47,344 bases of DNA from Gammaproteobacteria bacterium (GTDB lineage Bacteria > Pseudomonadota > Gammaproteobacteria > Immundisolibacterales > JAKLLR01), in contig JAKLLR010000005.1 of assembly GCA_022014175.1 (NCBI GenBank), forward strand, positions 1 to 47,344, read 5' to 3'. Positions 18,221 to 28,690 of this stretch are shown here, piece by piece. A program made the translations under genes and the position numbers. Below the pieces are notes generated by a model, which did no database searches, was not told where the DNA came from, and was given only the letters and a program-made list of their open reading frames with translations. Positions within the stretch are counted from its first letter, which is position 1. The number at the start of each line of letters is the position of its first letter.

Positions 18221-20221
18221 ATGGCCAGTCATTCTGAACTCGCCAACGCCCTGCGTGTTTTGAGCATGGATGCCGTGCAGAGAGCCAACTCGGGGCACCC
18301 CGGTGCGCCAATGGGCATGGCAGACATTGCCGAAGTGCTCTGGAACGGTTTTCTCAAACACAACCCCGCTAATCCCCAGTGGCCGGACCGGGATCGGTTT
18401 GTCCTGTCCAACGGCCACGGTTCGATGCTGCTCTACAGCCTGCTGCATCTCACCGGTTATGACCTCTCCCTGGATGATCTAAAGGCTTTTCGTCAGCTAC
18501 ATTCGAAAACCCCGGGGCATCCGGAGTACGGTTGTGCAGCGGGCATTGAGACCACTACCGGCCCCCTGGGTCAGGGGCTGGCTAACGGGGTGGGGATGGC
18601 CATCGCCGAAAAATCCATGGCGGCCCGGTTTAACCAGCCAGGGCACGAGATTGTGGACCATCAGACCTGGGTTTTTGTGGGCGACGGTTGCCTGATGGAG
18701 GGTATCTCCCACGAGGCCTGCTCACTGGCCGGGACCCTGGGGCTGGGTAAGCTCAATGTGATTTATGACGACAATGGCATCTCTATCGATGGTGCTGTGG
18801 GGGGCTGGTTTACCGACGATACCCCGGCCCGTTTCCGGGCCTATGGCTGGCAGGTGATTGAGGCGGTGGACGGCCACGATGCGGATGCCATCGCTGCCGC
18901 GTTAGCCACCGCGAAAGCACAGACCGACCGACCGACTCTGATCTGTTGCCGCACCATCATCGGTAAGGGTTCACCCAACAAGGCGGGTAGCTCTGCGGTC
19001 CATGGTGCTGCTCTGGGTGATGATGAAGTGGCGGCTGTTCGCAGGCAGCTGGATTGGCACGCGCCACCGTTTGAGATTCCGCCGGCGATATCAGAGGGCT
19101 GGAGTGCGCGAGGCAACGGCGAGGCTGTTGAAGCCGACTGGCAGCAGAGGTTCGAGGCGTATCGCTCTTCCCATCCGAAGCAGGCGGCGGAATTCGAGCG
19201 TCTTGCCACTGGCGCGCTGCCAGCCGACTGGTCCAGCCGGGTTTCGGAGATTCTTGAGCAGGCTGCGGCGACTGATAAAGCGGTGGCCACCCGCCAGGCT
19301 TCCGGGGGTGCTATCGCCGCCTTCGCAGCGGTTTTGCCGGAGCTGTTTGGAGGCTCCGCCGACCTGGGTGAATCCAATAAAACGGAGTGGCCGGGGTTCC
19401 GCGCCCTGAGCGCCACCCAGCCCGATGGCAACTACCTGCATTACGGCGTCAGAGAATTTGGTATGTCAGCCATCATGAATGGCCTGGCACTGCATGGCGG
19501 GTTCATCCCCTTTGGCGGCACCTTCCTGGTCTTTTCCGATTACTCCCGCAATGCGATTCGTCTGGCTGCCCTGATGCGGCAGCGGGTGGTGCATGTACTG
19601 ACCCATGACTCCATTGGTCTGGGTGAGGATGGTCCGACCCATCAGCCGGTGGAGCATGTCAGCAGTCTGCGGCTGATCCCTAATCTGTCGGTCTGGCGGC
19701 CCTGTGATCAGTTTGAAACCACGGTGGCCTGGCTCGATGCGCTTGAGCGGCAGGATGGTCCCACGGCGTTGATTCTCTCTCGTCAGAAGACTATTTCGCC
19801 ACCCCGTCAGGCCTCGGATGTGGAGCGGATTCGCCGTGGCGGTTACATCTTTAGCGACTGTGTCGGTGAACCTCAGCTGCTGTTGCTGGCCACCGGCAGT
19901 GAAGTTGGCCCGACCCTTGAAGCTCAGCAGCAACTTACAGAAAAAAACGTTAGAGCGCGGGTGGTTTCGATGCCAAACCCCGGCCATTTCGAGATCCAGG
20001 ATGAGAGTTATCGAGAGTCTGTATTACCGAGTGACGTGACAGCCCGGATCGCTATAGAGGCGGGCAGCAGGGCGTGCTGGTACCGCTATGTGGGGTTGAA
20101 TGGTAAGGTTATCGGTATCGACACATTTGGTGAATCGGCGCCTGCTGAAGAGCTCTACGAACTGTTCGGAATTACCGCCGATCAGATTGTGAAAACAGCA
20201 GACAAACTGTTGGCATCTTGA
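18221..20221 (+). CDS. tkt: Transketolase
   Basis: The 666-residue protein matches transketolase from end to end: [21 protein letters not shown] at the N-terminus, the thiamine-diphosphate motif [25 protein letters not shown] with the following NDNG-like [16 protein letters not shown], and the pyrimidine-domain segments [20 protein letters not shown] and [16 protein letters not shown]. Length is normal (E. coli TktA 663). It exchanges two-carbon units between pentose and hexose/triose phosphates. It heads a tkt-gap-pgk gene order that occurs in many proteobacteria and links pentose phosphate and lower glycolytic reactions. Confidence 0.98.
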
Positions 20222-20251
20222 GCCGCCAATCACTGCGACGGGGATAGAATT

Positions 20252-21268
20252 TTGCCGTATAAAATCGCTGTTACAGGGTTCGGGCGGATCGGGCGGGCCG
20301 TCGTGCGAGCGCTCTATGAGCTGGACCGGAGCGATGAATTCCAGGTGGTTGGAATCAATGATCTGGCCCCGGCGGAGACTCTGGCTCATCTGTTGAAATA
20401 TGACTCCACCCACGGGATTTTCAGCCAGGATGTATCGCTCTCCGGAGAGAATCTACTCAAAATCGGGGGTGATGAGATCAGGCTTTTTGCGGAGAAGGAT
20501 CCGGCGCAAATTCCCTGGGGTGAGTTAGGGGTCGATCTGCTGCTGGACTGCTCTGGCGCATTCCGTACCCGGGAGAAAGCATCCCGGCATCTTCAGAGCG
20601 GCGTGCCCCGGGTGCTGCTCTCAGCCCCGGCGGGTGACGAAGTGGATGCCACTGTGGTGTTCGGGGTCAACCAGCAAGTCCTGCGGCGGACGCATCAGAT
20701 TGTCTCCAACGCCTCCTGCACCACCAACTGTCTGGCGGTGCTGCTGAAACCACTGGTGGCCACTATCGGCATCGAAAGTGGCTTGCTGCATACGGTACAC
20801 GCTTACACCGGCGACCAGAATCTGGTGGATACAGCCCATAAGGACCTGCATCGAGCCCGGGCAGCCGGGGTCTCCATGATCCCGACCAAAACCGGCGCTA
20901 CCGATGCCGTGGGCCTGGTGATTCCGGAGCTGGCGGGGCGGTTGCAGGGGTTCGCCATGCGGGTGCCGACCCTTAACGTTTCGGTCTGTGACATGACTTT
21001 TGTGCCCTCCCGGGCGACCAGCGTGGAGGAGATCAACGAACTGCTGCAAGTCGCCGCGGATGGCGAAATGAAGGGGTTGCTGGAGATCAATCAGGCGCCT
21101 CTGGTCTCCATCGATTTCAACCATAACAGTGCCTCCGCGGTCTACGACCAGGCCCTGACCAAGGTCTCCGCGGATGGTCGGTTGGTCAAGCTGATGGCCT
21201 GGTATGACAACGAGTGGGGTTACAGCTGCCGGATGCTGGATATGGCCAGGGCCTGGCTGGAGAGCTGA
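20252..21268 (+). CDS. gap: Glyceraldehyde-3-phosphate dehydrogenase, TTG start
   Basis: The 338-residue protein begins PYKIAVTGFGRIGRAVVRA after a TTG codon at 20252, preceded by GGGGATAG; there is no in-frame ATG upstream that fits. The catalytic cysteine (about Cys156) lies in SNASCTTNC, the catalytic His in HAYTGDQ, and the C-terminal WYDNEWGYSCRMLD is canonical. GIND with Asp at about residue 36 suggests NAD as cofactor. It interconverts glyceraldehyde-3-phosphate and 1,3-bisphosphoglycerate. Erythrose-4-phosphate dehydrogenase is a related alternative given the tkt neighbour, but the motifs and pgk partner favour Gap. Gap to tkt is 30 bases. Confidence 0.93.
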   Translation: MPYKIAVTGFGRIGRAVVRALYELDRSDEFQVVGINDLAPAETLAHLLKYDSTHGIFSQDVSLSGENLLKIGGDEIRLFAEKDPAQIPWGELGVDLLLDCSGAFRTREKASRHLQSGVPRVLLSAPAGDEVDATVVFGVNQQVLRRTHQIVSNASCTTNCLAVLLKPLVATIGIESGLLHTVHAYTGDQNLVDTAHKDLHRARAAGVSMIPTKTGATDAVGLVIPELAGRLQGFAMRVPTLNVSVCDMTFVPSRATSVEEINELLQVAADGEMKGLLEINQAPLVSIDFNHNSASAVYDQALTKVSADGRLVKLMAWYDNEWGYSCRMLDMARAWLES

Positions 21269-21291
21269 CATTGGAGTTGAAGGTGCTGGCC

Positions 21292-22458
21292 ATGGATGAC
21301 GTGGCTCTCGACAGCCGGCGAGTGCTGTTGCGCACCGACCTCAACGTACCTTTTGCTGGTGACGCGATCAGTGACGACAGCCGGATTCAGGCGGCGCTGC
21401 CGACGGTTCGGCAGCTGATCGCGGCCAATGCCGCAGTGCTGCTATTGAGTCATCGGGGCCGACCGACGGAAGGGGAGATCGATCCGACCCTGTCGCTGCG
21501 ACCGGTGGCGGAGTATCTCTCAACCCATCTGGACTGCCCGGTGCGTTTTGCGCAGGAGTGGATTGACGGCGTCGGGGTCGCGCCGGGGGAGGTGGTGGTA
21601 CTGGAGAATGTCCGTTTCCTCACAGGTGAAAAGGCGGATGATGACGCCCTGGGGCGGCGACTGGCGGCGTTATGCGACGTCTATGTGATGGACGCATTTG
21701 GCACCGCACATCGGGCTCAGGCCTCAACCCATTCGGTGATTCGCCACGCGCCGGTGGCCTGCGCCGGGCCTCTGCTGCTGTCCGAACTGGAGGCGATCGA
21801 ATCCGCTCTGTCACAACCCGCGCGACCGTTGATGGCGATTGTCGGCGGCTCCAAGGTCTCCACCAAACTGAGACTGCTCAATCGGCTGCTTGGGGTGGTC
21901 GATCAGCTGATAGTGGGGGGCGGCATCGCCAACAATTTTCTTGCTGCTGCCGGTTACCCGGTGGGGCGCTCCCTGCTGGAACCGGATCTGATTGAAACCG
22001 CTCGGGCTCTGCTGGAGCGGGCCGGGCGCGAGGGCCGGACGATTCCACTGCCCACCGATGTGGTCTGTGCCAGCTCGATTGAAGATGCCGCCGGAGCGGT
22101 CACCAAGCCGGTTGATGAGGTGACGGACTCGGAGATGATTCTGGATATCGGCCCGGAAACGGCTGAGTGCTACGCGAGGTTGATAGAACAGGCGGGCACT
22201 GTGGTCTGGAATGGCCCGGTGGGGGTGTTCGAGGTGGAGGCCTTTGCCGGAGGCACGCAGCGGCTGGCCCAGGCAATAGCCTCAGCCCCGGGTTACTCTT
22301 TGGCCGGTGGTGGCGATACCCTGGCCGCTGTCTCTAAATACGGTGTGGCGGAGCAGATTTCCTACGTCTCAACCGGTGGTGGAGCTTTTCTTGAGCTACT
22401 GCAGGGGGAGACGCTGCCGGCAGTCTCCGCGTTGGCATCCCGTGCGGCCATGCCTTAG
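21292..22458 (+). CDS. pgk: Phosphoglycerate kinase
   Basis: The probable start is ATG 21292 (MDDVALDSRRVLLRTDLNVP) with GAAGG nine bases upstream, giving 388 residues, the same size as E. coli Pgk; the track ORF starts inside gap. Signatures seen are RTDLNVPF, LLSHRGRPT, ENVRFLTGEK, AIVGGSKVSTK, VVWNGPVGVFE and GGGDTLAAV. It produces ATP and 3-phosphoglycerate from 1,3-bisphosphoglycerate, or the reverse in gluconeogenesis. The short 23-base gap to gap and same strand indicate co-transcription. The next gene downstream is an AlkB-type monooxygenase, not the pyk or fba genes common after pgk. Confidence 0.97.
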   Translation: MDDVALDSRRVLLRTDLNVPFAGDAISDDSRIQAALPTVRQLIAANAAVLLLSHRGRPTEGEIDPTLSLRPVAEYLSTHLDCPVRFAQEWIDGVGVAPGEVVVLENVRFLTGEKADDDALGRRLAALCDVYVMDAFGTAHRAQASTHSVIRHAPVACAGPLLLSELEAIESALSQPARPLMAIVGGSKVSTKLRLLNRLLGVVDQLIVGGGIANNFLAAAGYPVGRSLLEPDLIETARALLERAGREGRTIPLPTDVVCASSIEDAAGAVTKPVDEVTDSEMILDIGPETAECYARLIEQAGTVVWNGPVGVFEVEAFAGGTQRLAQAIASAPGYSLAGGGDTLAAVSKYGVAEQISYVSTGGGAFLELLQGETLPAVSALASRAAMP

Positions 22459-22530: not shown

Positions 22531-23649
22531 ATGTGGGACTACCTCCGGTATTTCCTGAATAACCTGCTGTTGTTGGTTGCGATCAGCGGTTTTGTCCTAG
22601 GTGGTCAATGGGTCTGGCTGGGGGCGGCAAGTTTCCCTGTTCTGCTGCTGCTCGATTGCGTTACCGGAGATGATCTGGCCACGCGTCGTCCTGGGCCTGG
22701 TTGGTTGTATGACCTGCCGGTCTATCTGCACCTACCCCTGATTTTTGCGCTTTGGATCGGTTTTGGCTGGCGTATGGCTGTGGGTCTCGGGACCGAACCC
22801 GGCCTGCCAACCGGTTTAGCGATGCTGGGCTGTTTTGCGACCCTCGTCTGGATCAGCATCGTGCCGAATGTGTCACTTGCCCACGAGTTTTGGCATCGAC
22901 GGGACCCGGTTAAACAGTGGATCGGCAAAATCATGTTTCTCTTCTGTGGTGATATGAACCGGGACATCGCCCATCGAGTTACCCATCACGCTCACTTCGA
23001 TACTGTCATAGATACTGACACCCCGCGCCGCGGAGAGGGCGTTTACAGTTTTGCCTTGCGGGGCACCTGGTGTGTCGCGCGGGATTCCTGGATGATCGAG
23101 AAGGCCAAATTAGCGCAGCAGGGGCGCTCGGTGCTTGGACCTCACAGCGCGATTCTCTGGGGTTATCTGCTGCAGCTGGCGATCCCGCTGTTGCTCTGGT
23201 GGTTTGGGGGTGTGAGTGCTGCTTTAATCGGTACGGCGGCCTTTCTGGTGAACCGCTTGGCGGTGGAAGCATTCAATTACATTCAGCATTACGGGTTGCT
23301 GCGGGAGGAGCAGGGCAAACCCGGTAATCGACACACCTGGAATCACCTCTCTCCGGTGGCGCGGGTCATCGCCTTTGAAATTACCAATCACATGGATCAC
23401 CACAAAAACCCGACCCTGCCGTTCTACCAACTAGAGCCCCATGCCGATGGCCCACGGGACCGTCTGTTTTTGAATATGTTCCAGGTCCTGATTCCGCCGC
23501 TCTGGCATGCCCGCATGAAGCCACGTTTGAAACAGTGGGATCTGGAGCAGGCCACGCCCGGTGAGCGGAAGCTGGCGGCAGCGGAGAACCGGCGCGCCGG
23601 CTGGCCCGACTGGCTAGCTGACGGTGCTGGGGCGAGCGAGCCTGCTTAA
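22531..23649 (+). CDS. AlkB/CymA/XylM-type membrane di-iron monooxygenase (copy 1)
   Basis: The 372-residue protein has an N-terminal set of membrane helices ([20 protein letters not shown]) and the eight-plus histidine pattern of integral-membrane fatty-acid-desaturase-like hydroxylases: HEFWHR (118-123), HRVTHH (148-153), NYIQHYG (249-255) and NHMDHH (286-291). All histidines of AlkB are kept, but flanking residues differ: Ala replaces Glu before box 2, Gln replaces Glu in NYxEHYG, and box 4 is ITNHMDHH instead of LQRHSDHH. These variations fit CymA/XylM-like enzymes for methyl groups on aromatics or terpenes more than alkane hydroxylases. RBS GGGAGAGAAG precedes ATG. It follows pgk by 72 bases and is 60 percent-like by eye to the second copy at 24797-25924. 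Confidence 0.85.
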
Positions 23650-24749
23650 GCTGGCATCCGCAGGACCGGTTTGATGGTCTTGCCACTCTCCGAATCGGCG
23701 ACGGCCTGGTTAATTTGATCCAGCTCGTAGAAGGTGATCAGCCTATCGAAGGGGAAGCGCCCCTGCTGATAAAACTCCACCATCTGGGGGATGAACAGGT
23801 CGAAATTGGCCTCGCCTTCGCAGATGCCCCGCAGGGTGCGGTTGAAGATCATGTGATTGACGTCCAGTCCCACCTCCGTGCCCAGCGCCGTGGCCGCGAT
23901 GATACCGGCGGTGCCGCCGGTGCGAAGCAGTGAAATCGCCTCTTTCAGCGCGCCGGTATTACCGCTGGTATCCAGCGCATACTGGATACCCTGTTGCCCA
24001 ACGATTGCGCGAATCGCCTCGGCGGTATCACTTTCCGTCGGATTCAGGGTGTGGGTTGCCCCCAGCTCTTTCGCCAATGCCAGACGGTTGGCTTTGAGAT
24101 CCACCGCAATGATAGTGCTGCAGGCTGCGATTTTCGCGGCCATGACCGCGCTCAGCCCCACCGCGCCGGCACCGTAGATGACAATCTCGGAGCCCGCTTT
24201 CGGATCCAGCGCATTCAGAACCGCACCCGCACCGGTCTGTACACCACAACCCAGGGGGCCGAGCAGTTCCAGGGGTACCTCCTTGGTAACCGGTATGCAG
24301 TTGCGCTCGGAGACCAGGGCGTACTGGGCAAAAGAGGACTGGCCGAAAAAAGAGGCGTGGACCGACTCATCCCCCTTCGCGATCGTACAACTGCCGTCCG
24401 GTGCCACACCGCCGAAGTTGAGGGGGAAGACCTGTTCACAGGAGCTGGGCTGGCTGATCAGGCAGGGGGGACAATGGCCGCAGGTCATCAGCGTCAGCAC
24501 CACATGATCACCGGGTTGCACCTTGGTGACGCCGGCGCCCACTGCGTCCACCACCCCGGCCCCTTCGTGGCCGAGCACTATAGGCAGTGGCACCGGGTAG
24601 TCCTGGTCCCGGGAGACCAGGTCGGTATGGCAGATGCCTGTGGCGACGATGCGCACGCGGATCTCTCCGGGTTGGGGTTCCCGTAGAGTGACCGATTCGA
24701 TTGCAAAGGCCCCTTTTGGCTCCCGCAGAACGGCGGCTTTCATATCCAT
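23646..24749 (-). CDS. Zinc-dependent alcohol dehydrogenase, aryl/benzyl-alcohol type
   Basis: The 367-residue medium-chain dehydrogenase has the catalytic zinc cysteine in [16 protein letters not shown] for the zinc His/Glu, a structural zinc loop [15 protein letters not shown], and the nucleotide-binding [14 protein letters not shown]. It groups by eye with XylB/AreB-like benzyl-alcohol and geraniol dehydrogenases ([13 protein letters not shown] start). The start ATG 24749 has a strong GAGGAGGAG. It oxidises a primary alcohol to the aldehyde with NAD. It lies 47 bases behind the second AlkB-type gene on the same strand, so it is the likely next step after hydroxylation. Its 3' end overlaps the first AlkB-type gene convergently by four bases. 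Confidence 0.9.
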
Positions 24750-24796
24750 CTTGGTCGACTCCTCCTCGTCTTAATAATTGCGTTCAAGTGTACCGT

Positions 24797-25924
24797 TCAG
24801 GCGGCTTTTTTGGCTGTCTCCCGAGCTTCTTTCGACCAGTCAGGCCAGCCTGCGCGGCGGTTTTCTGCCGCGGCGAGTTCACGCTCCTGAGGGGTAGCGA
24901 TTTCCAGATCCCAGTGTTTCAGCCGCTTTTTCATATAAGCATTCCACCAGGGTGGAATAAAAGCGCGAAGAGCATCGAGAAAGAAGTTGTCGAGTTGTGG
25001 ACCCTCTGGATGGGTTGTTAGCTCGTAGTAGGGGGTCCGTGGGTTGCGATGATGATCAACGTGATTGGTGATCTCCAGACCTATGACTCGGGCAATTGGC
25101 GAGAGATGAGACCAGGTGTGGTGCGTGGCCGCGGGAGCCGGGCCGGGCCGGACGAGCCCAAAGTGTTGAATAAAGTTAAAGGTCTCCAGCAGTATCTTGG
25201 CTGAAATCAGCGCGACCAGGCTCCATGCTGCGACCTGGGGGCCGGCAAAAATGTACATGGCCAGGGGAATCGAGAGATTCATGGCCCAGCCCCACATGAA
25301 ATGGCTGTGCCAGCCAAAGACCGAATAACCTTCAGGCTCTAGTCGGGCCTTCTCCATTTTGTAGGTGTGGTAGTAAGCGTCCCAGGTGCAACGGGGTAGA
25401 AATCCGTAGACGGTATCGCCCCGTCGTCCAGTATCGCTATCTTTTGGAGTGTCGTAGAAAGCGTGGTGAACGGCGTTGTGGCAGAAGTTGCGGCTGGCGT
25501 CAAAAAAGAAGGCGCACATAATTCTGCCGATGAGTAGCTGGTGACGGCTATTACGGTGTAGAAACTCGTGGGCCACTGGCAGGTTGGGTACGATTGAGAG
25601 CCAGATTACCGAGGCCAGTGAGCCGGCAATCGCCAGCCAGGTGAGGCCAGTGGTTTCGGTTTCATTCCAGAATCCGATATTCAGGCGCCAACCGAAAGCG
25701 ACCCAAAGGCCAATGATCATGGGCAGATGCAAGTAGATGGGTAGATCTGCAATCCGTGGATGGTTTATGTGCCGGTTGGCGGTATCCATTCCGGTGAAAA
25801 ATTCGGCTATTGCAAGCGCAACAAAGGTGCTGAAACCCAACCATACCCATTGACCACCGAGTACGAAACCGAGGATACCCACAGCCATAATCAGGATGTT
25901 CAAATAGTATCTCAGATAGTCCAT
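24797..25924 (-). CDS. AlkB/CymA/XylM-type membrane di-iron monooxygenase (copy 2)
   Basis: The 375-residue protein is a clear paralogue of the product at 22531-23649: same MxDYLRYxLN start, [11 protein letters not shown] helix and RRAGWPDW ending. Histidine boxes are HEFLHR (119-124), HNAVHH (149-154), NFIQHFG (250-256) and NHVDHH (287-292). As in copy 1 the AlkB glutamates before box 2 and in box 3 are replaced (Cys, Gln). It should hydroxylate a hydrophobic substrate at the inner membrane, using electrons from a rubredoxin or ferredoxin-type reductase not encoded in the window. It lies between the Rieske oxygenase genes and the alcohol dehydrogenase gene on the minus strand, consistent with one catabolic transcript. 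Confidence 0.86.
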   Translation of the reverse strand: MDYLRYYLNILIMAVGILGFVLGGQWVWLGFSTFVALAIAEFFTGMDTANRHINHPRIADLPIYLHLPMIIGLWVAFGWRLNIGFWNETETTGLTWLAIAGSLASVIWLSIVPNLPVAHEFLHRNSRHQLLIGRIMCAFFFDASRNFCHNAVHHAFYDTPKDSDTGRRGDTVYGFLPRCTWDAYYHTYKMEKARLEPEGYSVFGWHSHFMWGWAMNLSIPLAMYIFAGPQVAAWSLVALISAKILLETFNFIQHFGLVRPGPAPAATHHTWSHLSPIARVIGLEITNHVDHHRNPRTPYYELTTHPEGPQLDNFFLDALRAFIPPWWNAYMKKRLKHWDLEIATPQERELAAAENRRAGWPDWSKEARETAKKAA

Positions 25925-25961
25925 CTTTCATCGCCTCATTGTCATGATGTGAGGGGGTGGA

Positions 25962-25994
25962 AGCCGGTTCCTTCCGGGGAGGAACGAACCGGCT
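25962..25994 (-). repeat. 9 bp stem-loop between the Rieske beta subunit and alkB-like copy 2
   Basis: AGCCGGTTC (25962-25970) and GAACCGGCT (25986-25994) are perfect reverse complements separated by 15 bases that can themselves pair in part (TTCC with GGAA). The element lies in the 94-base gap between two same-strand genes. No U-run follows on the minus strand, so it may be an mRNA-processing or stability hairpin, or a leaky terminator, setting different levels of the oxygenase and the downstream genes. Confidence 0.5.
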
Positions 25995-26018
25995 CCGTTG
26001 TTGCTCCTGGTACAGCGG

Positions 26019-26501
26019 TTAGATCGGATAGATGATGTAGCGGGGTGATACTGCGGTATCCGTAACAGCTAGCTTGGCCCGGAATCGGGCCTCTTCCCCA
26101 CAGAGCACGATTTGATCTTCATACTGACCGGTCACCAGCAGCCCGGTGTGGCCTTCGTGGTTGGTGTAGAAGACCGTAAAATTGGTGCGTGCGAGCAGGT
26201 CGCCGTTGTCCGTCCGGATGGCAGAGACGGGCTGTAGCATGTGGCGAGACTGATACCCCTCCACGGTCTCTCCCCAGACTTCATCTACAAATTTGACCCG
26301 ATCGACCAACCGTTCATGGCAGTCATCGAGCATCAGGCTCAGGGGCAAGCCCTGTTTAATGTTCTCCTGGCTGGTGAGTCGATACTGACCGTCATCGTTG
26401 AACAGCGCCAGCCAGGCTTGCATATTTCGTTGGTCGAGGGCGTCAATATATTGCTGTTGCAGGGTGTTGATGGCGCTGATTTGTTCGGCTGTCACTGTCA
26501 T
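26019..26501 (-). CDS. Aromatic-ring-hydroxylating dioxygenase beta subunit
   Basis: The 160-residue protein has the SnoaL/NTF2-like beta-subunit fold: N-terminal helices (INTLQQQYIDALDQRNMQAWLALFNDDGQYRL), then HMLQPVSAIRTDNGDLLARTNFTVFYT and the strand-rich tail ending AVSPRYIIYPI, as in RHO small subunits (usual length 160-190). It has no redox centre and stabilises the alpha subunit hexamer. The gene starts four bases after the alpha-subunit stop codon, so the pair is translated together. Confidence 0.85.
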   Translation of the reverse strand: MTVTAEQISAINTLQQQYIDALDQRNMQAWLALFNDDGQYRLTSQENIKQGLPLSLMLDDCHERLVDRVKFVDEVWGETVEGYQSRHMLQPVSAIRTDNGDLLARTNFTVFYTNHEGHTGLLVTGQYEDQIVLCGEEARFRAKLAVTDTAVSPRYIIYPI

Positions 26502-26505
26502 GAGC

Positions 26506-27681
26506 TCAATAACCCATCAGCTGTTTATATTCAGACCACCAGACAGTGGAGACGGTCTCGTCGTTCTGAGCGCTGGTTTTACGATCCGGCACCGCTGTGC
26601 CGATGCCTTTGACGAAGTTCATGGTGCCCACGCCACCAGTCACCCCTTTCTGGCAACGATCAAATACGGAGCCATCCTCAATGCTGACAAAGCCGCTTGG
26701 GCCAAGCAAATTAGAGCTCTGGCGGACCCGATGTTTCAGCATCTCCGGGGAGTCATCTTCGTAACCGTAATAGCCGTAGTGAACTTCGGTTTTATCCACC
26801 CCAAGCGGTCGACCGAAGCGGAAATTGATACTGTTGAAATGGCGCACCACCTGGGTGACCGGCCTGATTAGCGCGCCGGCTGCGGTGGTTTCATCCCCCT
26901 TGACTTCAACCAGCTCCGGGTCGGACAGGAAGCCGTTGTCCTTGTACCGTTCGACGGCATAGGCCATGCCCCAGTTGCCGGCGGGGCCATCGGCGAAGAG
27001 CTCGCCCTTGCCGCCCTGAAAATTCAGTAGACGAAAGGCGGTGTGGAGTAGACCGGCGTGGTAGCCATCGTTATCCATGTAGACCTTCCAGTTGCAGTTG
27101 AATACGACCTTCTGGTAGCCGAGTAATTTAAGTGGCCGGGTGCCATCTCCGACGCAGGATTTGAGGGCATCGCCAACCCGTCCGAAATAGACTTCAATGG
27201 GTGGAGTATTGTCGGGGTCAAAGGTGGCGAAGATAACCCCGTAAAAATTCACGGTTTTCAGCTCTTTCAGTCCGGACTCGGACTTGCAGAAGGCTGCGGG
27301 AAAGGTTTCATCCCCGGGCGCACCCAACAGGCTGCCATCGGTGGCAAAAACCCAGCGGTGATAGGGGCAGGTGAAGCGTTTGGCGGAGCCCCGGGGGGCA
27401 ACGGTGAGTTGTACCCCGCGGTGGGCGCAGGCGTTGATAAATGCCCGGCATTGACCGTCTTCGCTGTGGGTGACCAGTACCGGTGTTTCACCTACCGTGA
27501 GGGTTTTGAAGTCGTTAGGTGTCGGGATTTCGGCGACCAGAGCCACGGGGTGCCAGAACGGACCGCGGAATATCCGCTCCATCTCCAGCTGATAAATCTC
27601 GGGATCGGTGTAGAACTCGTAGGGGATTTTGGTCGAGTCTGACCAGGCGGCCAGGCTCGACACTTCTGTCGGTTGGTTCAT
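26506..27681 (-). CDS. Rieske non-haem iron oxygenase alpha subunit
   Basis: The 391-residue protein has the Rieske [2Fe-2S] motif CAH (Cys85, His87) and CPYH (Cys105, His108), and the mononuclear iron motif in DNDGYHAGLLH (Asp205 bridge, His208, His213) after the conserved NWKVYMDN. A further iron-ligand Asp is expected near the C-terminus. It catalyses dioxygenation or monooxygenation of aromatic compounds at a cytosolic site. At 391 residues it is shorter than typical benzoate/toluate or naphthalene dioxygenases (about 430-460), so substrate class cannot be read from length. No ferredoxin or reductase gene is nearby. It is the first gene of the minus-strand unit alpha-beta-alkB-adh and is divergent to an SDR gene. 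Confidence 0.92.
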   Translation of the reverse strand: MNQPTEVSSLAAWSDSTKIPYEFYTDPEIYQLEMERIFRGPFWHPVALVAEIPTPNDFKTLTVGETPVLVTHSEDGQCRAFINACAHRGVQLTVAPRGSAKRFTCPYHRWVFATDGSLLGAPGDETFPAAFCKSESGLKELKTVNFYGVIFATFDPDNTPPIEVYFGRVGDALKSCVGDGTRPLKLLGYQKVVFNCNWKVYMDNDGYHAGLLHTAFRLLNFQGGKGELFADGPAGNWGMAYAVERYKDNGFLSDPELVEVKGDETTAAGALIRPVTQVVRHFNSINFRFGRPLGVDKTEVHYGYYGYEDDSPEMLKHRVRQSSNLLGPSGFVSIEDGSVFDRCQKGVTGGVGTMNFVKGIGTAVPDRKTSAQNDETVSTVWWSEYKQLMGY

Positions 27682-27765
27682 CGGGACTCTCCTTTCCTCA
27701 TCGATGCTTTAATGATTGTGTATGCGGTAGCACCTCGCGGGAGCCTACAATATTAATTTTCGTGG

Positions 27766-27793
27766 TGCAACGCACAATTTTAGTTGCGTTGCA
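27766..27793. promoter_or_regulatory. Candidate operator: 9+9 bp inverted repeat in the Rieske/SDR divergent region
   Basis: TGCAACGCA (27766-27774) and TGCGTTGCA (27785-27793) are perfect reverse complements separated by ten bases, with arm centres 19 bases apart, about two helical turns, which suits a dimeric regulator. It lies in the 223-base gap between divergent start codons. On the minus strand a TTGTGC/TAATAT pair with a 16-base spacer overlaps the left arm, so a bound protein would sit on that promoter. The regulator is not identifiable; no obvious catabolic regulator gene adjoins. Confidence 0.55.
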
Positions 27794-27904
27794 ATACCTT
27801 TCGCCATCGGCGGATATTAAATATGAAATAGTGGACTGAAGCGGTGTTCGGAGATAAGTTTTAGAAAACAGGGTGCGGGACTCGAAAAAGGGAGAGGAGT
27901 CGTG

Positions 27905-28690
27905 ATGACTGACGGAGATCTGGCCGGGCAGATTGGCCTCATAACGGGTGGCGGTGCAGGTATCGGCCGGGCAATCGCCCTGGAGTGGGCCGCCCGTGGC
28001 GGAAAAGCCGTGGTGGCGGATCTCTCTGTCGAGGCCGCCACGGCTGTGGTTTCAGAGATTGAATCGGCTGGGGGTGAGGCGCTGTCGGTGGTGGTTGATG
28101 TGACTGATCCGGCGGCGATTAAAGCGATGCTCCACACCACTCTGGAGCGGTTCCGCAGAGTCGATGCGCTGTTCAATGTCGCCGGGAACAACAGCTTTAA
28201 AAACGTCGAAGAGGCAGAGGACGAGGAGTGGCAGTTCATCTTCGACACCAATCTGCGTTCGATCTATCGCATCTGCAAGCTGGTCATTCCAGAGATGCGC
28301 CGCCAGGGTGGCGGGGCGATTGTTAACGTCGCCTCTACGGCCGGTATTCTGGCGGAGAACCGTTGCGCGGCTTACACCGCCAGCAAAGCTGGAGTGATCG
28401 GCCTGGGCAAGAATATGGCGATGGATTTTGCCCGGGACGGCATCCGGGTTAATACCCTCTGTCCCGGCGGCACCATGACCCCTCGGGCGGAACGCTATCT
28501 GGGTCAGAATCCGGAGGCGCTGGCACAACTGGAGGGGCAGACCGCGATGAAACGGCTGGCACAACCCGAAGAGATCGCCCGGCCCGCTGTATTTCTGGCC
28601 TCGCCGGCAGCCTCGTACATTACCGGCGCAGCCATTGTGGTTGATGGCGGTATGACCGCTGGCAAGCATATCGATCTGTTTGACCAGTAG
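27905..28690 (+). CDS. SDR-family oxidoreductase
   Basis: I take ATG 27905 as start, five bases after AGGAG, although GTG 27902 just before is used by the track; 261 residues. It has the classical SDR pattern: TGGGAGIG cofactor loop, NVAGNN, catalytic Ser in NVASTAGIL, and YTASK. The ADLS end of beta-2 (Asp) suggests NAD preference. It is divergent to the Rieske oxygenase operon and shares its control region, so cis-dihydrodiol dehydrogenase is a reasonable but unproved role; ordinary 3-oxoacyl/cyclohexanol-type reductases look similar. It ends 83 bases before the convergent LysR gene. Confidence 0.88.
   Translation: MTDGDLAGQIGLITGGGAGIGRAIALEWAARGGKAVVADLSVEAATAVVSEIESAGGEALSVVVDVTDPAAIKAMLHTTLERFRRVDALFNVAGNNSFKNVEEAEDEEWQFIFDTNLRSIYRICKLVIPEMRRQGGGAIVNVASTAGILAENRCAAYTASKAGVIGLGKNMAMDFARDGIRVNTLCPGGTMTPRAERYLGQNPEALAQLEGQTAMKRLAQPEEIARPAVFLASPAASYITGAAIVVDGGMTAGKHIDLFDQ

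Follow-up and report, generated by a model that had tools for sequence, protein, structure and literature searches.

A XylM/XylB-type methyl-oxidation module adjoining an AhdA1e-type Rieske oxygenase in an uncultured relative of Immundisolibacter

Immundisolibacter is a tar-degrading bacterium, and the locus described here comes from an uncultured relative. The closest described counterparts of this locus include the upper pathway of the TOL plasmid pWW0 (XylM, XylA, XylB, and XylC), the TOL/benzoate lower pathway (XylXYZL, BenABCD), and the AhdA1e/BphA1e Rieske oxygenases (RHOs) of PAH-degrading sphingomonads. BphA1e/AhdA1e proteins are described as a distinctive, separate cluster lacking a complete standard RHO system, one of them active with type-IV electron-transfer partners (PMC2358900). 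The same paper, on salicylate 1-hydroxylases, reports an AhdA1e-type oxygenase active in strain P2 (PMC2358900). Among sphingomonad RHOs, the motif D-x-D-x2-H-x4-H is reported as unique to AhdA1e (PMC4048848). Across aryl-carboxylate RHOs, a conserved arginine (R309 of TphA2) binds the substrate carboxylate (PMC9060491). Within the order considered here, Immundisolibacter cernigliae carries six alkB/M copies and 21 xylX-type variants (PMC9535955).

The window, meaning the whole 47,344-nucleotide stretch analyzed, is an entire contig (C51) of a 2.2-Mb MAG (173 contigs, 92.6% complete). This MAG is the sole genome of its family in our collection, and the family sits within Immundisolibacterales; the order was represented by eight genomes, the window MAG and seven others. 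All seven reading frames proposed by a first-pass annotation of the region were found in place, and the cluster proteins exceed the curated Pfam cut-offs for their families. The features are as follows.

18221-22458 and 27905-28690: tkt-gap-pgk and the SDR gene, a gene order conserved across the order
22531..23649, plus strand: AlkB1, XylM-family membrane di-iron hydroxylase copy 1, 372 aa (PF00487, E=2.3e-20; sister to AlkB2 in the XylM family, support 100/99)
23646..24749, minus strand: XylB-like zinc alcohol dehydrogenase (ADH), 367 aa (60% identical to pWW0 XylB and 59-63% to the order's ADHs adjoining XylM-like genes)
24797..25924, minus strand: AlkB2, XylM-family membrane di-iron hydroxylase copy 2, 375 aa (PF00487, E=4.8e-17)
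26019..26501, minus strand: RHO beta subunit, 160 aa (PF00866, E=2e-13; 46-56% identical to betas adjoining RHO alpha orthologues)
26506..27681, minus strand: RHO alpha subunit of the AhdA1e-type aryl-carboxylate clade, 391 aa (Rieske and iron ligands, tree, orthologues at 56-59% in six relatives)
27766..27793: inverted repeat between RHO alpha and the SDR gene, perfect 9-bp arms with a 10-bp spacer, a possible shared operator
27905..28690, plus strand: SDR with a GTG start, a probable diol dehydrogenase partner of the RHO (ortholog of the gene after pgk in the order)

On the minus strand, the genes are separated by 4 nt (alpha to beta), 94 nt (beta to AlkB2), and 47 nt (AlkB2 to ADH). AlkB1 follows pgk on the same strand after 72 nt and converges on the ADH gene, which it overlaps by 4 nt, while RHO alpha and the SDR gene diverge across 223 nt. 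The next gene after the SDR encodes a CysB-family LysR protein and lies beside sulfur-assimilation genes, on which grounds it was not taken for the regulator of the cluster. Within the cluster, we found no gene for an aldehyde dehydrogenase (ALDH), ferredoxin, reductase, rubredoxin, or ring-cleavage enzyme; the first-pass annotation had reported partner and ring-cleavage genes as missing, which is borne out for the cluster itself.

The two hydroxylases are 49% identical and are each other's closest relatives in our tree (100/99). Both fall within a 36-row XylM-family clade (100/99) that leaves two alkane-type AlkB rows outside, and the two alkane-type reference proteins share just 26-27% identity with the pair. 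AlkB2 is 38.7% identical to pWW0 XylM, matches solved AlkB structures (E=7e-18), and retains nine invariant di-iron histidines (H119, H123, H149, H153, H154, H254, H288, H291, and H292, in HExxH, HxxxHH, QH, and HxDHH sets); its AlphaFold model is of low confidence (pLDDT 63). The initial label "AlkB-type" therefore holds in that these are PF00487-family di-iron hydroxylases, but an identity as alkane AlkB was discarded because the pair fails to group with alkane AlkB in the tree. Judged from their sequences, AlkB1 and AlkB2 are XylM-family hydroxylases with predicted aryl-methyl oxidation activity. The genome's third PF00487 protein has the sequence of an ordinary acyl desaturase and was not counted with the pair.

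XylM-type enzymes are rare elsewhere in the class (3 of 365 sampled genomes outside the order, E<=1e-50), yet all eight genomes of the order encode XylM-like proteins (E<=1e-30), so several copies per genome are normal for this lineage; one relative (G001) has six such genes. What distinguishes the present locus is the inverted XylM-type pair flanking a XylB-type gene, and the substrates of the two copies may differ. Elsewhere, a solitary XylM-like gene adjoins flagellar genes in two relatives (G001 and G002, loci L045 and L052) and is nearer to AlkB1 and AlkB2 than to the XylM of pWW0.

The ADH, whose gene adjoins AlkB2, matches pWW0 XylB at 60% over 365 aa and the XylB of an Alteromonas xyl cluster at 59%, as against 32% for an NDMA-type ADH. 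In the sister family, XylB-type ADHs 59-63% identical to it are encoded beside or near XylM-like genes. With both hydroxylases in the XylM family, the nine histidines kept, and this close match to XylB, the methyl-oxidation half of the locus is TOL-like, as first proposed.

Candidates for the enzymes missing from the cluster were sought by targeted searches and in selected stretches of the genome. A BenC/XylZ-like reductase on contig C111 (38% to XylZ, 30-33% to XylA) is the sole genome hit for a XylA-type reductase and is unlinked to the XylM-type genes. Also unlinked are two Rieske ferredoxins (C66 and C15) and a protein resembling RHO ferredoxin reductases at about 34% (C126), candidates for the Rieske ferredoxin and GR-type reductase that an AhdA1e-type RHO would use. 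The genome encodes five full-length ALDHs; one of them (C96) is 61% identical to the G001 ALDH encoded close to a XylM-like gene, and another (C45) is 46% identical to KK22 XylC. Contig C85 carries a catechol 2,3-dioxygenase above the NCBIfam cut-off together with genes for hydroxymuconic semialdehyde dehydrogenase, hydratase, and acetaldehyde dehydrogenase, and further extradiol-type proteins lie on C66, C70, and C173. The suggested search for unlinked genes returned candidate reductases, both ferredoxins, ALDHs, and a catechol meta-cleavage set. With candidates for the other steps present outside the cluster, the genome could plausibly support a complete route even though the cluster is incomplete. 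An ALDH gene adjoining a UbiD-like gene (labeled by eye) was also seen, near a XylM-like gene in G001 (L047) and apart from one in the window MAG (C96, L111).

The ring-attacking enzyme is of a different kind from that of TOL. RHO alpha has all of its Rieske ligands (C85, H87, C105, and H108), D205, and the iron ligands H208, H213, and D336. Its iron-site motif, D203-N-D205-G-Y-H208-x4-H213, corresponds to D-x-D-x2-H-x4-H, the same in every clade member examined. In the tree, a 16-row clade (99/99) unites it with proteins of KK22, Rugosibacter, Paraburkholderia BN5, and Rhodococcus/Prescottella, the KK22 protein being called AhdA1e on its motif; the window protein lies in a sister subclade (96/90). 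The clade as a whole is sister to AndAc-type enzymes and apart from XylX and from the cumate-like RHO of Rhodococcus pseudokoreensis R79. On this evidence, RHO alpha belongs in the AhdA1e-type aryl-carboxylate clade. A XylXY/BenA-type identity (28% to XylX, separate clade) and a cumate dioxygenase identity (28% to the R79 protein, itself named from its context, separate clade) were both rejected, and with them the XylXY- or cumate-type oxygenase of the first-pass annotation, RHO alpha being AhdA1e-type by tree and motif and 28% identical to XylX/CmtAb. R288 aligns with TphA2 R309, which is consistent with a carboxylate substrate but falls short of proof, as other RHOs also have Arg at that column. 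The AlphaFold model of RHO alpha (pLDDT 49) is too poor for reading the substrate pocket.

Of the seven other genomes in the order, six carry an orthologue of RHO alpha (56-59%), and the best match in the remaining one, a 60%-complete MAG, is 46%. At the relative loci read, none of the orthologues had a XylM-like gene beside it. The first-pass annotation had staked its pathway on the hydroxylases and RHO alpha sharing pathway clades or co-occurring in relatives. The outcome is mixed: most genomes of the order encode both XylM-like proteins and the RHO, yet the two fall in different pathway clades and their genes lie unlinked in the relatives examined.

Rieske oxygenases are abundant in these genomes, with ~28 alpha-type frames in the 2.2 Mb of the window MAG, while each genome of the sister family holds 17-60 matches to the window RHO alpha. 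The window MAG also encodes ~17 copies of an uncharacterized ~110-aa protein, which in the loci read lie mostly beside alpha-only Rieske oxygenase genes (L085, L086, L091, L094-L097, L099, L101-L103). The one copy tested had no Pfam or NCBIfam match, and distant plasmid homologues are annotated as hypothetical. This protein is a possible unrecognized companion subunit of Rieske oxygenases.

Gene order across the order bears on how the locus arose. In six relatives (G001-G006), the gene directly after pgk encodes an SDR 54-63% identical to that of the window, following tkt-gap-pgk where assembled; in the seventh (G007), the contig ends. In the window, a 5.2-kb AlkB1-ADH-AlkB2-RHO block separates pgk from the SDR gene, interrupting an otherwise conserved order of sugar-metabolism genes. 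Because the two genes adjoin in six relatives, the simplest reading of the synteny is insertion or relocation of the block into tkt-gap-pgk-SDR in the window lineage. Alternatively, the block may have been lost in the sister family, the comparison covering genomes within the order. A search for mobile-element traces found the repeats of the region weak and chance-like, save for the expected inverted homology between AlkB1 and AlkB2, and GC drops mildly to 0.55-0.56 over 25-28 kb versus about 0.60.

The SDR is 34% identical to XylL and 32% to CmtB, falls outside both clades, and groups with actinobacterial RHO-linked SDRs, so that neither identity was retained and the XylL-like assignment first given to it was dropped. 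Its close relatives (E<=1e-50) appear in 2 of 72,556 plasmid records, those of Rhodococcus qingshengii TG-1 and Prescottella equi WH99 (56%), two near relatives that count as one independent case. Both plasmid SDRs are encoded divergently from, and adjoining, the two best plasmid matches of RHO alpha. Given that the sole close plasmid relatives of the SDR lie divergent beside close relatives of the RHO, the two enzymes probably work together. The inclusion of the SDR in the cluster must be qualified: in the relatives, it is an old neighbor of pgk, with the other five genes wedged between in the window, although the adjacency of SDR and RHO genes on the plasmids speaks for a partnership. The inverted repeat at 27766-27793, the only perfect copy in the genome and one of two perfect repeats with 9-bp arms in the window, is a possible operator shared by RHO alpha and the SDR gene. 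A promoter scan returned fewer sites than in shuffles.

We lean toward reading the locus as a composite catabolic block for methyl-substituted aromatics, in which XylM/XylB, the RHO, and the SDR act in one pathway with unlinked steps. AlkB1 and AlkB2 would turn an aryl methyl group into aryl-CH2OH, the XylB-type ADH would yield the aldehyde, and an unlinked ALDH the aryl carboxylate. The AhdA1e-type RHO alpha-beta would oxygenate the ring at the carboxylate position or beside it, and, if this attack is a dioxygenation, the SDR would re-aromatize the diol to a catechol. The unlinked catechol 2,3-dioxygenase and meta pathway would complete breakdown, with electrons drawn from the unlinked reductases and Rieske ferredoxins. 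The minus-strand genes may be co-transcribed, and methylated aromatics are probably a fuel for this cell, with other loci of the genome supplying the remaining steps. This reading is supported by the short same-strand spacing, the XylM clade with its nine histidines, the XylB-like ADH, the aryl-carboxylate RHO group with R288 and the AhdA1e motif, the RHO-SDR pairing on plasmids, and the unlinked candidate partner genes. Of the TOL-like pathway first envisaged, methyl oxidation and unlinked completion stand, while the kinds of ring oxygenase and of dehydrogenase were wrong.

Several observations weigh against a single pathway. XylM and RHO genes are unlinked in every other genome examined, the family has a single genome, and a block could be assembled without a shared pathway. 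For the XylA-type reductase that normally serves XylM, the match is only 30-33%, to a protein that looks more like XylZ/BenC, and AhdA1e is tied to salicylate 1-hydroxylation, a reaction with no need for an SDR. A more specific version of the pathway can be offered only tentatively: a TOL-analogous route with non-orthologous ring attack, in which the paired XylM-type enzymes and XylB supply an aryl acid for the AhdA1e-type RHO, itself served by a dedicated SDR from beside pgk and shared with the actinobacterial RHO-SDR pair. If true, the AhdA1e clade would gain a dioxygenase-plus-diol-dehydrogenase function and a methylarene-derived substrate.

The most durable rival, which we nonetheless regard as rather unlikely, is that two independent functions lie side by side: XylM/XylB methyl oxidation of one substrate class and, separately, a RHO akin to salicylate 1-hydroxylases that supplies catechol from the degradation of PAHs. 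It draws on the unlinked RHO orthologues of all relatives examined, the activity of the strain P2 oxygenase, and the PAH-associated, RHO-rich character of the order; against it stand the tight same-strand gaps, the adjacency of XylM-like and RHO genes in other lineages too, and the actinobacterial SDR-RHO pairing, which suggests dioxygenation. Oxidation of p-cymene or another terpenoid is improbable as a route in which the XylM-type enzymes take the role of CymAa, the ADH that of CymB, and the RHO that of cumate dioxygenase; on a terpenoid substrate as such, the evidence is neutral. The same functional set does occur on a plasmid of Rhodococcus R79, in a cluster read from context as p-cymene/p-cumate, and its AlkB-type protein is in the same family as XylM; AlkB1 and AlkB2 nevertheless group apart from that protein, RHO alpha (28%) is in a different clade from the R79 RHO, the SDR reaches 32%, and the ADH is 32% identical to the NDMA-type ADH of R79 versus 60% to XylB. 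Alkane hydroxylation with an unrelated RHO is very improbable, for although relatives are annotated "alkane 1-monooxygenase" and the family is PF00487, the alkane-type references lie outside the XylM-family clade and the partner ADH is XylB-like.

The locus brings ordinary families together in an unusual combination. The composite block shares with the TOL pWW0 upper pathway a XylM-family hydroxylase (38.7%) and a XylB-type ADH (60%), but differs in its two opposed XylM-type copies, in the ring-attacking RHO within the gene run, and in lacking linked XylA or XylC. It resembles the TOL/benzoate lower pathway in having RHO alpha-beta and an SDR, with meta cleavage elsewhere in the genome; its RHO alpha, however, is of another clade than XylX, its SDR is distant from XylL, and no reductase is linked. 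A complete TOL-type cluster was not found, as linked XylA, XylC, XylZ, and ring-cleavage genes are absent from the cluster and their candidates are unlinked. The R79 plasmid cluster likewise joins AlkB/XylM-type, ADH, RHO, SDR, and ring-cleavage genes, but the RHO, SDR, and ADH of the window belong to different clades. The TG-1 and WH99 plasmids share the divergent SDR (56%) and RHO alpha-beta (45-46%); on them, the linked genes encode a further RHO, a ferredoxin, a reductase, and VOC-family proteins, and XylM/XylB are absent. With the AhdA1e/BphA1e RHOs of sphingomonads (KK22, pNL1), the window RHO shares clade and motif; it differs in its 40.6% identity, its separate Immundisolibacterales subclade, and its tight linkage to XylM/XylB genes. 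The locus ties an AhdA1e-type oxygenase to genes for methyl oxidation, and a probable SDR partner emerges from the comparison with actinobacteria, making the chemistry testable and offering practical use in annotating hydrocarbon degraders.
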